Notes under the pieces: model-generated
Databases searched by the model: none
Seen by the model: the letters and a program-made list of their open reading frames with translations, nothing else
Told to the model about the DNA's origin: nothing
Made by a program: the position numbers and the translations under genes
Shown here: one piece after another, positions 5,342 to 10,629 of the stretch
Layout: each line of letters opens with the position of its first letter
How positions within the stretch are numbered: position 1 is the stretch's first letter
NCBI GenBank assembly: GCA_017430675.1
Contig: JAFRMM010000033.1
Coordinates: forward strand, 1 to 10,629
Reading direction: 5' to 3'
DNA length: 10,629 nucleotides
Source: Prevotella sp.
Lineage (GTDB): Bacteria; Bacteroidota; Bacteroidia; Bacteroidales; Bacteroidaceae

Positions 5342-6781
5342 ATGAAAGATTTGAAAATGTACATCAACGGCCAGTTTGTGGAGAGCCGTTCGGGTGAGTG
5401 GATTGAAGTATTGAACCCCAGCACGGAGGAAGTGACCTCGCGCCAGCCTGCAGGTACGGTGGAGGATGTGAACGAAGCCGTGGAGGCTGCATACGCGGCC
5501 CAGAAGAAATGGGCGAAGGTGCCTGCTGCCGAGCGTGCCGTCTATCTGCATAAGATTGCCGACGGCATCCGTGCCAACTTCGACAAGTTCCAGGAGATCA
5601 TTGTCCGTGAGCAGGGTAAGACACAGGCGCTTGCCGGTGTGGAAGTGGGTGTCACTGCCACTTATTTCGACTATATGGCTGAGTTTGCCCGCCGCATTGA
5701 GGGTGAGGTGATTCAGAGTGATGCCCCCAACGAGACGATGATTCTCGTGAAGAAGCCTATCGGTGTGGCTGCCGGTATCCTGCCTTGGAACTTCCCGTTC
5801 TTCCTCATTGCCCGTAAGGCTGCCGCCGCCCTGATAACAGGCTGCTCCATCGTTATCAAGCCTGCTCAGATTACGCCCGAGAACTGTACGGAGATCTGTA
5901 AGGTGGTTCATGAGAGTGGTCTGCCTGCCGGTCTGTTCAATGTGGTGACAGGTAAGGGTTCCGTGGTTGGTAATGCGCTGGCCAGTCATCCCAAGGTGGG
6001 CATCGTGAGCCTGACAGGTTCTGTTGGAGCCGGTGTGAAGATTATGGAAGCCGCTGCTCCGAATATCACCAAGGTGAGCCTCGAACTGGGTGGTAAGGCC
6101 CCGGCCATCGTATTCCCCGATGCCGACCTTGAACTGGCTGCTCAGGCCATTCTGGAGAGCCGCATCGGCAACACCGGTCAGATTTGTAACAATGCCGAGC
6201 GCGTTTATGTACACAAGGATATCAAGAAGGAATTCACCGATCTCATCGTGAAGAAGTTCAAGGCCGTGAAGTATGGCAATCCTGCCATTGAGAAGGATGT
6301 CGATATGGGGCCGCTGGTGGAGAAGGCTGCACTGGAGAGTGTGACGAAGAAGGTGAACCACGCCGTGGAGCAGGGAGCCAAGATTCTTTGTGGCGGTGCT
6401 CCCGTTGAGGGCAAGGGCTACTTCTATCCTGCAACGGTGCTTGACAACTGTACTCAGGATATGGACATCATCCATGAGGAGACCTTCGGCCCGGTGCTGC
6501 CATTGGTGGAGTTCGACAACATCGACCAGATCATCGAGTGGGCCAACGATTGCGAATACGGTCTTGCCTCTTCGGTATTCACCAAGGACATCGACACCGC
6601 TACACGCATCTGCCGTGAGATTGAGTTCGGCGAGACTTATATCAACCGCATGCACTTCGAGGCCATCCAGGGCTTCCATGCAGGTGTGAAGAAATCAGGT
6701 ATTGGTGGTGCTGATGGTAAGCATGGCATGGAGGAATACCTCGTCACGAAGGTGGTCTATCTTGATACTCACTATGAGTAG
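5342..6781 (+). CDS. aldA: Lactaldehyde dehydrogenase (AldA-type aldehyde dehydrogenase)
   Basis: The cytoplasmic 479-aa enzyme is the same length as E. coli AldA and recognisably similar throughout. AldA oxidises L-lactaldehyde, formed by aldolase cleavage in L-rhamnose and L-fucose breakdown, to L-lactate with NAD; glycolaldehyde is also a substrate. Seen: 'GILPWNFPFFLIARK' with Asn150, 'IVIKPAQITP' with Lys173, 'LTGSVGAG' (224-231), 'LELGGKAP' with Glu248, 'NTGQICNNAERVY' with nucleophile Cys282, 'HEETFGPVLP', and near the C-terminus 'FGETYINR' and 'QGFHAGVKKSGIGGADGKHG', the latter two very like AldA. The ATG follows an AT-rich leader. Its stop overlaps the start of the GH106 gene (ATGAGTAG), so the two are probably translated from one mRNA, linking rhamnoside hydrolysis with lactaldehyde oxidation. 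Glycolaldehyde or another aldehyde as main substrate cannot be excluded. Confidence 0.9.
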   Translation: MKDLKMYINGQFVESRSGEWIEVLNPSTEEVTSRQPAGTVEDVNEAVEAAYAAQKKWAKVPAAERAVYLHKIADGIRANFDKFQEIIVREQGKTQALAGVEVGVTATYFDYMAEFARRIEGEVIQSDAPNETMILVKKPIGVAAGILPWNFPFFLIARKAAAALITGCSIVIKPAQITPENCTEICKVVHESGLPAGLFNVVTGKGSVVGNALASHPKVGIVSLTGSVGAGVKIMEAAAPNITKVSLELGGKAPAIVFPDADLELAAQAILESRIGNTGQICNNAERVYVHKDIKKEFTDLIVKKFKAVKYGNPAIEKDVDMGPLVEKAALESVTKKVNHAVEQGAKILCGGAPVEGKGYFYPATVLDNCTQDMDIIHEETFGPVLPLVEFDNIDQIIEWANDCEYGLASSVFTKDIDTATRICREIEFGETYINRMHFEAIQGFHAGVKKSGIGGADGKHGMEEYLVTKVVYLDTHYE

Positions 6782-9560
6782 AAAAAAACAACCCCGACAG
6801 ACCCTCCCCCTGCCCCTCCCTATAGGGCGGGGGGCGATTACATTTAAGAGTAGGAAGTATCTACTCCCCTCCATTCAGGGAGGGGCAGGGGGGAGGGTCT
6901 GCTGCTGGTGGGTCTGTGTGGTTATTCTTCTTCTCTTTTTCCCGTTGATGACCGTGGGCCAGCAATGGCCGACAGTGAATCCCGAGGCCAAGCCCGGTGC
7001 CCGCTGGTGGTGGCTGGGCTCTGCCGTTGACAAGGAAAATCTGCAATGGAATATGCAGGAGTATGCCCGTCATGGCATCGGTGCCTTGGAGATTACCCCT
7101 CTTTACGGCGTGCAGGGGAACGACCGGAACAATATTCCCTATCTGTCTGATAAATGGATGGAAATGCTGCGCTATACTGAGGAACTGGGCCGCCAGAACG
7201 GTATCGAGATAGACATGGCCACGGGCACGGGATGGCCTTTTGGCGGTCCGTGGGTGCCGTTGGAGGAGAGTGCCTGCCGGGCGGTGTTCGTGGAACAGTC
7301 CTTCATTGGTGATAAGGTGGCGAATATGGACCTGCGGCCTACTGAGGAGAAAGACCGCAAGAATGCCGTGCTCCATAAGGCGATGCTTTTCGGACATGAC
7401 AGTTCTGTCGTTGATGTCACGGATTGCATGACCGACGGCTTCCTGAACTGGAAAGCCTCGAAGGCAGACAGCAAACTCCTGGGCGGCAAGGACGACAGCA
7501 AGACCGTCGTGGTGCTCTATATCAAGTACGGCGTGATGAAGGTGAAGCGGGCGGCTCCCGGAGGAGAGGGACTGGTCATCGACCACTTTGACCGCAAGGC
7601 TGTGGCCAACTACCTGAAGCACATCGAGGAGGCCTTTGAGCGCACCCATACGCCTTATCCCCATACGTTCTTCAACGACAGTTACGAGGTGGCCGATGCC
7701 ACTTGGACACCAACGCTCTTCGAGGAGTTCTACAAGCGGCGCGGCTATCGTCTGGAAGACCATCTGCTGGCTTTCACCCACGGAGATGTGAAACTCGTTT
7801 CTGACTACCGTGAGACACTTTCTGATCTGCTCTTGGAGAACTTCACCCGGCAATGGACGGATTGGGCCCATAGCCACGGGGCCATCACCCGTAATCAGGC
7901 ACATGGTTCTCCGGCAAACTTGATTGACTGCTATGCCGCGGTGGATATTCCGGAGATTGAAGGCTTTGGCCTTTCTGACTTCGGCATCAAGGGATTGCGC
8001 CAGGATCCGGGCAAGACCCGCAAGAACGATTCCGACTATTCCATGTTCAAGTATGCTCCGTCGGCAGCCCATATCTGCGGTAAGCCCTATACGAGCAGCG
8101 AGACCTTCACATGGCTTACGGAGCATTTCCGCACCTCGCTCTCACAACTCAAGCCCGACCTTGACCTGATGTTCTGCGCCGGCGTGAACCACATGTTCTT
8201 CCACGGTACTTGTTATTCGCCGAAAGATGACCCGTGGCCGGGGTGGAAGTTCTATGCCTCGATAGACATGAGTCCCACGAACACTATCTGGCGCGATGCA
8301 CCTGCATTTATGGAATATGTGGAGCGTTGCCAGAGTTTCCTTCAGTGGGGACAGCCTGACAATGACTTCCTGGTCTTCCTACCCGTTCGGGATATGTGGA
8401 AGAAAAACCCCGACAAACTGCTGATGCAGTTCTCCATCCACGCGATGGGCAAACTGGCTCCTGAATTTATCAAGACCATCCTCGACATCGACAAGGCTGG
8501 TTTCGATTGTGACTATATCTCCGAGCGTCTGCTGATGGGCTGCAAGGTGGTGAATGGTGGAATCGAGACAGCCGCCGGAACCCGCTACAAAGCCCTCATC
8601 ATTCCCGGTAGCGGAGATATGCCCGAGCAGGTGAAGGCCCACATCGAAGCGATGAAGGCTCAGGGTGCAAAGGCTATCTATGGTACGGATGTGAAAGAGA
8701 TGAATGCTGCCGCCAAGCCTGAGACCATGAAGACGAAGTATGGGCTGAATGCTATCCGTCGCAAGAATCCCACGGGCTATCATTATTTCATTGCCAACCT
8801 GACGCCTCAGGATATTGAGACGGACGTTCCGTTGGGCGTTGACTTCAAGCGTGCTTGCTTCTTCAATCCTCTCAACGGTGATATCACGCCTGTTCCCATC
8901 GCTTTGGCCGACCATAAGATTCATCTCGCCCTGCGAAGCGGAGAGAGCATCATCGTGCAGACCTTTGATGACGCCCCTCAGCAACAGTCTGCCGATTTAC
9001 TGAAGGACCTGGTTTCCGTCTATCACCAAGCATCCACGGCCCATCCGCAGGAATATCCGCTCAACGGCCCGTGGACACTCTCGTTCATCGAAGAGGCTCC
9101 GAAGGTGGGGCAGACCTTCACTCTCGATAAACTTCAGACGTGGGAGACATTGAGCGATGAGACCCGCGTCACGATGGGGACCGGTGTCTATGAGACCACC
9201 GTCAAACTGAAGAAGAAGGATCTGAAGGATGCCACGGATTGGAAGATTGACCTTGGCGACGTGCGTGAGAGTGCCCGTGTCTATATCAACGGGCAGTATA
9301 TCGGTTGTGCATGGTCGGTACCCTTTGTGCTTGATTGCAAGAATACGCTGAAGGCAGGCCTGAACACCATCCGCATCGAGGTGACCAACCTGCCTGCCAA
9401 CCGCATTGCCGACCTAGACCGCCGTGGCGTGAAATGGCGTAAGATGGAGGAAATCAACGTGGTGGACATCAACTACAAAAAGACCTTATACGACACTTGG
9501 GAGCCCATGCCCAGCGGCCTGAACTCACAGGTGAAACTAATATCCACCATCAATCGCTAA
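6774..9560 (+). CDS. Secreted GH106-family glycosidase (alpha-L-rhamnosidase type)
   Basis: The product is 928 aa from the ATG at 6774. GH106 enzymes remove alpha-L-rhamnose, notably from pectins. Family features: 'PGARWWWLGSAVDKENLQWNMQEYARHGIGALEI' region (74-107), 'GTGWPFGGPWV' (151-161), 'FFNDSYEV' (299-306), 'DIPEIEGFG' (391-399) and 'YTSSETFTW' (439-447); acidic residues in the last three blocks are catalytic candidates. A jelly-roll, carbohydrate-binding-like domain is seen near the C-terminus ('ESARVYINGQYIGCAWSVPF'). The start is chosen because ATG 6774 overlaps the aldA stop and gives the basic start MSRKK. The hydrophobic core VCVVILLLFFPLMTVG (47-62) ends just before GQQ, a likely signal peptidase site. 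Between these, residues about 9-42 are encoded by repeat copy B, giving an unusually long n-region. Alternatives are GTG at 6918 or ATG at 6951; the latter would lose the signal peptide. Confidence 0.85.
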   Translation: MSRKKQPRQTLPLPLPIGRGAITFKSRKYLLPSIQGGAGGRVCCWWVCVVILLLFFPLMTVGQQWPTVNPEAKPGARWWWLGSAVDKENLQWNMQEYARHGIGALEITPLYGVQGNDRNNIPYLSDKWMEMLRYTEELGRQNGIEIDMATGTGWPFGGPWVPLEESACRAVFVEQSFIGDKVANMDLRPTEEKDRKNAVLHKAMLFGHDSSVVDVTDCMTDGFLNWKASKADSKLLGGKDDSKTVVVLYIKYGVMKVKRAAPGGEGLVIDHFDRKAVANYLKHIEEAFERTHTPYPHTFFNDSYEVADATWTPTLFEEFYKRRGYRLEDHLLAFTHGDVKLVSDYRETLSDLLLENFTRQWTDWAHSHGAITRNQAHGSPANLIDCYAAVDIPEIEGFGLSDFGIKGLRQDPGKTRKNDSDYSMFKYAPSAAHICGKPYTSSETFTWLTEHFRTSLSQLKPDLDLMFCAGVNHMFFHGTCYSPKDDPWPGWKFYASIDMSPTNTIWRDAPAFMEYVERCQSFLQWGQPDNDFLVFLPVRDMWKKNPDKLLMQFSIHAMGKLAPEFIKTILDIDKAGFDCDYISERLLMGCKVVNGGIETAAGTRYKALIIPGSGDMPEQVKAHIEAMKAQGAKAIYGTDVKEMNAAAKPETMKTKYGLNAIRRKNPTGYHYFIANLTPQDIETDVPLGVDFKRACFFNPLNGDITPVPIALADHKIHLALRSGESIIVQTFDDAPQQQSADLLKDLVSVYHQASTAHPQEYPLNGPWTLSFIEEAPKVGQTFTLDKLQTWETLSDETRVTMGTGVYETTVKLKKKDLKDATDWKIDLGDVRESARVYINGQYIGCAWSVPFVLDCKNTLKAGLNTIRIEVTNLPANRIADLDRRGVKWRKMEEINVVDINYKKTLYDTWEPMPSGLNSQVKLISTINR
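6799..6900. repeat. G/C-run palindromic repeat, copy B (paired, inside GH106 5' end)
   Basis: Two units face each other as imperfect inverted repeats: left 6799-6834 (AGACCCTCCCCCTGCCCCTC...) and right 6866-6900, whose complement begins AGACCCTCCCCCCTGCCCCT. Each has its own small hairpin (left with loop TATA, right CCCCTCC/GGAGGGG). A 31-nt AT-richer spacer separates them. G-quadruplex motifs lie on the minus strand at 6802-6820 and on the plus strand at 6878-6897. The end-to-end length is 102 bp, exactly 34 codons, and the frame stays open. No target-site duplication was recognised. Confidence 0.88.
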
Positions 9561-9650
9561 AACCCACCCCTGCCCCTCCCGAAGGGAGGGAAGTCTGGAA
9601 AGTAAGACGAAATAAGAGAACCCCTCCCTTGGGAGGGGCAGGGGTGGGTT
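9561..9650. repeat. G/C-run palindromic repeat, copy C (paired, convergent gap)
   Basis: Left unit 9561-9590 and right unit 9621-9650 are inverted copies: the first 20 bases (AACCCACCCCTGCCCCTCCC) are identical to the complement of the last 20. Each has a hairpin (CCCTCCC, GAA, GGGAGGG; and CCCCTCCC, TT, GGGAGGGG). The spacer is 30 nt and A-rich. The element begins on the base after the GH106 stop and ends 7 nt before the convergent hydratase stop, so it occupies 90 of 97 intergenic bases. G-quadruplex motifs are at 9563-9580 (minus strand) and 9631-9648 (plus strand). It may slow or stop transcription from both sides, but lacks U-tracts of intrinsic terminators. Confidence 0.92.
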
Positions 9651-10122: not shown

Positions 10123-10152
10123 GAGTTATTAAGTTTATGAGTTTTTAAGTTT
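10121..10152. repeat. Tandem 16-bp duplication at the MFS/hydratase junction
   Basis: Two adjacent 16-mers, ATGAGTTATTAAGTTT (10121-10136) and ATGAGTTTTTAAGTTT (10137-10152), differ at one base. They cover the space between repeat copy D and the hydratase start; the second copy contains the MFS stop codon and the first overlaps the hydratase ATG. Confidence 0.8.
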
Positions 10153-10629
10153 CAAGAAGTCCCTCCCTTCGGGAGGGGGTAGGGGTGGGCATCCTCCGGC
10201 TCTCAAAGAACCCGCGGGTCTTTATGATAAAGAGCAATGTGCCTGATACCTGAACTGCCGCAACGAGCCAGAAGGCAGGCACGTACCCCAGATACTCTGA
10301 AGCCACACCGCCGATGAGCACACCAAGCCCCATGCCTACATCCCATGAGACAAGAATCGTGCTGTTGGCTGTTCCGCGCTGATTGTTTCTTGCCACACTG
10401 ATAATCATGTTCTGGAAGGCAGGCCATATATGGCCGTTGCCCAGTCCGATGAGCAGGGCCGACGTGTAGTAACCGAAATCATTCGGACAGGCCACAAAGA
10501 GTGTATAGCCGAGTGCTGAGAGCACCACGCCTTCAGCCCCGTTCTGACTCAGTTTCCCTTCCCTGAGACCCTTGCTCCCTTGCAATCGGGAGGCAATCAG
10601 TCCTACGGAAAGCAGAGCGAAATAGACAC
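10145..10629 (-). CDS. MFS transporter, C-terminal part (5' end outside window)
   Basis: The frame is open to the right edge, so only about 160 C-terminal residues are present. Hydrophobic segments alternate with short loops as in the second half of a 12-helix MFS carrier: 'VYFALLSVGLIASRLQG', 'GVVLSALGYTLFVACP', 'SALLIGLGNGHIWPAFQNMIISVA', 'ILVSWDVGMGLGVLIGGVASEYLGY' and 'PAFWLVAAVQVSGTLLFII'. The 'NNQRGTANSTILVSWDVGMGLG' region resembles drug/metabolite efflux-type MFS carriers (helix 11 region), but the substrate is unknown. A TTG within the frame at 10585 is not the start, because membrane-protein sequence continues upstream of it. The last residues, MPTPTPSRREGLLET, are encoded largely by repeat copy D. 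The gene leads into the MaoC-like gene 22 nt downstream. Confidence 0.8.
   Translation of the reverse strand, partial: VYFALLSVGLIASRLQGSKGLREGKLSQNGAEGVVLSALGYTLFVACPNDFGYYTSALLIGLGNGHIWPAFQNMIISVARNNQRGTANSTILVSWDVGMGLGVLIGGVASEYLGYVPAFWLVAAVQVSGTLLFIIKTRGFFESRRMPTPTPSRREGLLET
10161..10190. repeat. G/C-run palindromic repeat, copy D (single unit, inside MFS 3' end)
   Basis: The unit has a perfect 7-bp hairpin (CCCTCCC, TTC, GGGAGGG; 10161-10177) and the G-run arm; plus-strand positions 10171-10189 form a four-run G-quadruplex motif with loops 1, 2 and 1. No inverted partner follows toward the hydratase gene, so this is a solo unit. It lies within the reading frame of the MFS transporter and encodes most of its last 15 residues. 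Orientation relative to that gene is the same as for copies A-C. Confidence 0.88.

Follow-up and report, generated by a model that had tools for sequence, protein, structure and literature searches.

A REPIN-like palindromic repeat probably translated as part of the signal peptide of a GH106 enzyme from Prevotella

Background

Is a palindromic repeat that separates the putative start codon of a secreted enzyme from the hydrophobic core of its signal peptide translated into protein, or does translation start behind it? Genes with internal repeats have been described for Rickettsia and a few further bacteria, and where such a repeat is N-terminal an annotation error is suspected (according to the accessible part of PMC3733652). 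Secreted proteins can settle this doubt, because their start must precede the charged n-region. The case considered here lies in the window, by which we mean the whole analysed stretch of 10,629 nucleotides from Prevotella sp. (assembly GCA_017430675.1, contig JAFRMM010000033.1); the genome is a draft, 85% complete and with 5% contamination. The features around the repeat are:

5342 to 6781, + strand: aldehyde dehydrogenase gene aldA (Pfam PF00171), its TAG stop lying in the first GH106 codons (ATGAGTAG)
6774 to 9560, + strand: secreted GH106-type glycoside hydrolase (PF17132, homologue N-termini), ATG 6774 being the most likely start
6774 to 6797, + strand: n-region MSRKKQPR preceding the element
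6798 to 6901, + strand: inverted pair of palindromic repeats, REPIN-like, covering residues 9-42 and part of codon 43 of the translation
6799 to 6846, + strand: first half-element (half-element HMM, 51.3 bits)
6853 to 6898, - strand: second half-element (half-element HMM, 45.0 bits)
6900 to 6959, + strand: hydrophobic core and cleavage region of the signal peptide, CCWWVCVVILLLFFPLMTVG, read from the sequence and followed by a mature start, QQWP/QSWP, conserved in homologues

The repeat and its reading frame

The element runs from CAGACCC (6798) through GGGTCTG (6901) and measures 104 bp by its inverted-repeat boundaries, not 102 bp as the sequence-only reading had it. The halves were scored with a 50-nt profile HMM built from copies in the same genome, those of the window included (nhmmer --max). 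This genome holds 64 blastn matches to the element (both strands counted, a palindromic place being able to count twice), and the palindrome core CCCTCCCNNNNGGGAGGG occurs there with at most 1 mismatch at 48 places, versus 0 for the reversed control pattern. Measured against dinucleotide shuffles, the fold of 6796-6903 as single-strand DNA (-36.2 kcal/mol, z -6.5) and that of 6744-6960 as RNA (-95.5 kcal/mol, z -4.1) are both unusually stable. The matches, the core counts and the folds exclude chance as the origin of the repeat pattern. No Rfam family matches in the window at gathering cut-offs, and no target duplication is visible at the element.

The enzyme matches Pfam Glyco_hydro_106, and its frame is open on the + strand from TTG 6702 to the stop at 9560, right across the repeat, as had been proposed for an in-frame insertion in the signal peptide region. 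The product from ATG 6774, an uninterrupted frame of 928 residues, begins with MSRKKQPRQTLPLPLPIGRGAITFKSRKYLLPSIQGGAGGRVCCWWVCVVILLLFFPLMTVG followed by QQWP, that is, MSRKKQPR, 34 element residues, the hydrophobic core with the cleavage region, and the mature start. The proposals that the stop-free element encodes residues ~9-42 and that the hydrophobic core comes directly after its second half thus hold. In-frame starts upstream of 6774 (TTG 6702 to TTG 6762) lie deep within aldA, whose end (stop at 6779-6781) is overlapped by the GH106 start at ATG 6774 (CACTATGAGTAG). There is no in-frame ATG, GTG or TTG within the element; downstream of it follow GTG 6918, TTG 6945, ATG 6948 (earlier misplaced at 6951) and GTG 6954.

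If one of these four codons were the start, the element would be leader or intergenic DNA. This alternative agrees with the strong hairpin lying immediately upstream and with the view of Di Nocera and colleagues, who suspect an extragenic position for many N-terminal REPs (PMC3733652, accessible part), but we consider it unlikely, as none of the four provides a basic n-region before the full hydrophobic core: the GTG 6918 product (VVILLLFFPLMTVG) has no basic residue, and the three later starts yield no signal peptide at all. Moreover, a six-frame reading over the whole element meets stops in five frames, and the sole open one is the frame in use.

N-termini of GH106 homologues

Further evidence on the start comes from the 120 best GH106 homologues, which we sorted by N-terminal type, their starts being database predictions. 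The element is absent from 63 of them, comprising 51 of the type ...VKSLLWLVLSGLPLMVAA, 8 of the type MKRPVRILLSL... and 4 of the type MFNMEIK.... A short hairpin type as in the relative L079 (MNNRLISFPALIGKGRVHW...) is present in 37, an element-length segment occupies the site in 11 (cluster P0001 and ten clusters with a different segment, E2), and 9 have later predicted starts (6 very late, 3 with an E2-type core). The VKSLLWLVLSGLPLMVAA-type proteins begin with MSRK, MSRR or MSRQ in 15 cases and with MRRQ or MRRK in 36. Because 15/63 element-free homologues begin with MSRK, MSRR or MSRQ, ATG 6774 is a plausible inherited start, in keeping with the basic MSRKK start suggested from the sequence and at odds with an extragenic repeat. 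The orthologues do not all start after the element, the outcome named beforehand as fatal to a translated repeat; yet the three proteins with an E2-type core (P0063, P0109 and P0112) are predicted to do so, which speaks for the extragenic alternative unless it reflects the choice of the gene caller.

P0001, a 99%-identical homologue of 927 residues (4 members, 10 contigs), shares 858/864 residues of the mature part with the window. It starts with MSRKKQPL, and all 34 element residues are unchanged, with the hydrophobic core one residue shorter; the frame has therefore survived a change of length with the element intact. The E2 clusters (P0002, P0018, P0061, P0064, P0065, P0070, P0078, P0080, P0090 and P0095) carry TLPRPLPVRAGSGYTQDSPKGFYSPPYREGPGVG or a near variant where the window has its element. 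Both the frame kept in P0001 and the different segment held in frame in ten clusters argue against an extragenic element. To judge from their likeness to repeat-encoded peptides elsewhere, read as protein, the E2 segments appear to be repeat-like themselves.

Alternatively, the insertion might have damaged the signal peptide, leaving a decaying 5' end and an enzyme that has lost its export. The n-region is indeed very long and, judged from known signal-peptide rules, the cleavage site TVG of the window looks weaker than AFA of P0001. Against this stand the uninterrupted frame, the near-identity of the mature part with that of P0001 and the retained hydrophobic core, and we regard decay as very improbable.

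The type of N-terminus varies between strains. The mature parts of P0061 and P0092, and likewise those of P0070 and P0100, are 849/851 identical, the first member of each pair being of the E2 type and the second element-free; in both pairs the difference spans the whole signal peptide, not the element alone. A rapidly built tree from the mature parts of 127 sequences, poorly supported at many inner branches, intermixes the E2 and element-free types, which points either to an exchange of 5' ends between strains or to a chimeric origin of some metagenome assemblies. Another signal-peptide type (MFNMEIKTIFAKAAAAFCLLIALPFSCFA) is found on closely related mature GH106 sequences in P0075, P0085, P0086 and P0102, a further hint that the 5' end is exchanged.

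Orthologous junctions

In a first set of orthologues (30 loci, less the window itself and the incomplete L077) the signal peptide shows no repeat in any of the 28 relatives with readable N-termini. In a second set (80 loci, less the incomplete L147 and L149) 76 of the 78 N-termini read from DNA are without one, the exceptions being L079 and L122. The two sets share genomes, so the counts are not independent, and repeats were sought as exact GGGAGGG/CCCTCCC heptamers and by eye, a check that degenerate repeats could escape. L079 has a single hairpin in its signal peptide (CCCTGCCCTTATAGGGAAGGGGAGGG; MNNRLISFPALIGKGRVHWFLSFLLLALPVMA), and L122 a repeat pair around the start codon (MNKIENVAKHPSLWEGLGRLFLIFLLIHLSFCPAGA). 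In this distant orthologue the start codon itself apparently lies in the spacer of the repeat pair, upstream of 2504.

Three relatives, L078, L079 and L102 (L078 being identical with L159, and L102 with L158), have aldA within the examined flank and a mature GH106 of the same kind as that of the window. The proposed alignment of aldA-GH106 junctions was borne out in part: the signal peptide is compact and free of repeats in two of them and has one small hairpin in the third, but a gene between aldA and GH106 in all three (Pfam Glyco_hydro_28 in L102) makes the junction differ beyond the insertion. The window has no GH28 gene at this place; a 77% identical GH28 is encoded elsewhere in its genome, and a deletion from one ATGAG stretch to another may have removed the gene from the junction. 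An exact empty site was not found among the relatives: those without the element have a different hydrophobic core as well, and those of them read from DNA have GH28 upstream.

The repeat family in the genome

The census of repeat units covered 40 stretches chosen for holding matches, plus the window. It resolved 94 halves into 71 units, with 23 inverted pairs spanning 79-204 bp among them. A simple codon model places 22 units within coding cores, 25 at one end of a called frame and the other 24 outside. Further copies in the window are:

1 to 33, - strand: half-element at the window edge (core pattern and HMM), another copy lying 65 bp before it on the contig
9559 to 9649, strand not assigned: diverged repeat pair (HMM) between the convergent GH106 and MaoC-like genes
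10161 to 10189, - strand: single degenerate half (HMM, 14.1 bits), encoding the C-terminal tail MPTPTPSRREG of an MFS gene

The C-terminal tail of this MFS transporter (MPTPTPSRREGLLET, 10145-10189) is encoded by the degenerate half-repeat.

Pfam assigns ten ORFs with internal repeats to an AAA_30/UvrD-type helicase, RNase R (RNB), RsmF, a BspA-type LRR protein, GMP synthase, the small chain of beta-galactosidase, alpha-L-rhamnosidase and an RNA pseudouridine synthase, two having no match. Ten ORFs with a repeat at the 5' end encode a DUF5074 protein, an MFS transporter, a semialdehyde dehydrogenase (ArgC-like), an S41 protease, a GyrB/ParE-type protein, a POTRA protein (BamA-like), a GH2 enzyme, a TPR protein, a DUF4369/AhpC protein and PdxA. 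The ORF of the RNA pseudouridine synthase (L239, 1751-3409) accommodates, in one open frame, two complete repeat pairs together with one weaker half. In the beta-galactosidase, which has several repeats (L233, 1263-4099), the TIM-barrel domain is spread over two overlapping frames, the gene being either broken or affected by a frameshift or sequencing error; therefore not every repeat-bearing gene is intact.

Where the repeat is translated in GMP synthase and RNase R, their PDB relatives (5tw7 and 8cdu, respectively) are each shorter by 8 residues. The GMP synthase loop TPSPLGRAGEG is absent from all 15 readable relatives (of 19; L357, L365, L367 and L373 were left out), which have other sequence there, mostly shorter and in L364 longer. 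The BamA-like protein has a repeat in its own signal peptide, and none of its 19 relatives has one. Of 68 merged units, 14 have coding sequence on both sides (of the rest, 53 are not clearly flanked by coding sequence on each side and 1 lies at an edge). Ten of the 14 are open and four frame-different, namely those in L221, L230 and L241, which lie between two different genes, and that in L235; at a chance of 1/3, the probability of at least 10/14 units in the same frame is 0.004.

These data bear on the idea that the element has been domesticated, i.e., that selection maintains its long basic n-region or its mRNA hairpin for adjusting secretion or the coupled translation behind aldA. The strong mRNA fold, the overlap of the aldA stop with the GH106 start and the identity of the 34 element residues in the window and P0001 despite a changed hydrophobic core would all fit such a role. 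Nonetheless, near-identical mature proteins vary in the presence and sequence of the element, and the same repeats in unrelated cytosolic enzymes argue for neutrality, which makes domestication improbable. As to a direct effect, it is only a possibility that hairpins of the element in the mRNA slow early translation of GH106.

A second genome and the genus

Genome G059 is 99% complete, and 30 stretches around core sites were taken from 62 sites in all. A hand count of 57 sites with at most 1 mismatch placed 27 within coding cores and 23 where no frame was called, the remainder lying at 5' ends (5 sites) or 3' ends (2 sites). With at most 2 mismatches there are 39 units, of which 14 have coding sequence on both sides: 9 open, 2 with a stop and 3 frame-shifted (9/14 open, probability 0.017 at a chance of 1/3). 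The GMP synthase of this genome, which is that of a second species (L376, 656 residues), has a tandem NDQTTSSP repeat and two inserts that resemble the repeats, all in one frame, one insert being in the same loop as in the genome of the window. Across the genus the exact core is found in 61 of 150 genomes, at 1 to 62 copies.

Repeats in signal peptides

In the genome of the window, 12 genes have an in-frame start ahead of a translated 5'-end repeat. The repeat is followed by a signal peptide or lipobox in 8 of them (the window, L210, L221:512, L230, L232, L237, L240 and L242:3571-3644) and not in the other 4 (L212, L216, L221:2553 and L241). The signal-bearing genes include those of the BamA-like protein, the S41 protease and lipoproteins. 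In G059 the count is 3/4, with two OMP-barrel proteins and a DUF5686 protein (L307, L317 and L330:4180) on one side and a UvrD helicase (L330:1932) on the other. Signal peptides were called by eye, L210 being doubtful with a further ATG after its first repeat, and the tally omits L205, L207, L215, L223, L225, L231, L235, L238 and L242:2040, as well as L323 and L331 of G059, on the grounds of an ambiguous start or of no in-frame start ahead of the element.

By a crude rule, 24/97 and 17/70 genes of the same stretches look signal-peptide-like, the repeat-bearing ones included. Against a background of 0.25, the probability of 11/16 is 0.0003 (0.0008 for 10/15 without L210); for the genome of the window alone it is 0.003 for 8/12, 0.006 for 8/13 with L207 counted as non-signal and 0.008 for 7/11 without L210, and for G059 alone 0.05. 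The enrichment of repeats in signal peptides is a post hoc comparison, a lead and not a proof.

Interpretation

Taken together, we are fairly confident that a REPIN-like repeat is translated here as a tolerated extension of the GH106 n-region, working like Rickettsia palindromic elements (RPEs). A non-autonomous REPIN-like palindromic repeat would have been placed just after the start codon of the secreted enzyme, where it happens to occupy the only stop-free frame of its six and would hence be translated, with initiation presumably at 6774. The n-region would thereby be lengthened from ~8 to ~42 residues, with five extra basic residues, and because the hydrophobic core and the cleavage region follow the element, export would be expected to continue; the element-bearing GH106 is thus probably still exported. 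We infer likewise the selective neutrality of the element and its route of insertion.

More tentatively, and with rather less than even confidence, we speculate that REP-type repeats of Prevotella use signal-peptide n-regions, along with protein loops, as safe landing sites. Secreted enzymes, BamA-like and outer-membrane proteins and lipoproteins could in this way gain export signals that are encoded by repeats and vary from strain to strain, the 5' end with its repeat might be swapped between strains as a module, and the added charge or the mRNA hairpin may alter secretion. If true, selfish DNA would have been turned into protein in gut Bacteroidota, in the very part that decides on export, and the element-free and element-bearing alleles of one enzyme make a direct comparison possible.

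Comparison with known systems

With REPINs the family shares the arrangement of two oppositely oriented REPs separated by a spacer (the pair in the window and 23 of the 71 units) and the occurrence as a multi-copy family in the genome. It differs from them in that the Y1 transposase genes of its own genome are flanked by other repeats. These two RAYT-like genes (L001, 1078-2036; L002, 1035-1103) were considered as mobiliser and rejected, the flanking repeats being of the types GGGGACGGTTCTTTGATT or GGGGACAGG. No cognate RAYT flanked by the element was found among 32 Y1 loci (the 2 own ones and the 30 best-scoring matches in the genus, mostly frames of ~150-200 residues against a RAYT size of 260-300), the half-element HMM exceeding 30 bits at only one of them (L267). 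The element thus has REPIN anatomy, and since the RAYT partner that defines REPINs was not found, we call it REPIN-like.

RPEs are described, in the accessible parts of PMC10969869 and PMC3733652, as palindromic repeats of ~150 bp, many of them in frame within unrelated genes. The resemblance to RPEs tolerated inside genes, noticed in the sequence-only reading, extends to in-frame insertion across many unrelated coding genes of the genome of the window; the phylum and the peptides are different, and here the repeats recur in signal-peptide n-regions. Di Nocera 2013 reports GTAG/CGTC REPs, single and paired, inside ORFs including their termini (PMC3733652, accessible part). Inspected by eye, some halves of the window's family have GAGTAG after the palindrome and others a different sequence such as AGCAATTACT, so that the tag is inconstant; Prevotella is not mentioned in the text of that paper, and the homologues considered here favour a translated N-terminal copy. 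Intragenic ERIC-like RU elements, including a predicted signal peptide partly made of the repeat, are described in the accessible part of Delihas 2007 (PMC2759123), which has one such signal peptide, with a repeat and a host that differ from those presented here. Among the best open-licence literature matches on REP/REPIN, Prevotella and Bacteroidetes we found no paper on in-gene REPs of Prevotella. Intragenic REPs themselves have already been published; new here are the group of hosts, the repeated occurrence in signal-peptide n-regions and the control by homologues.
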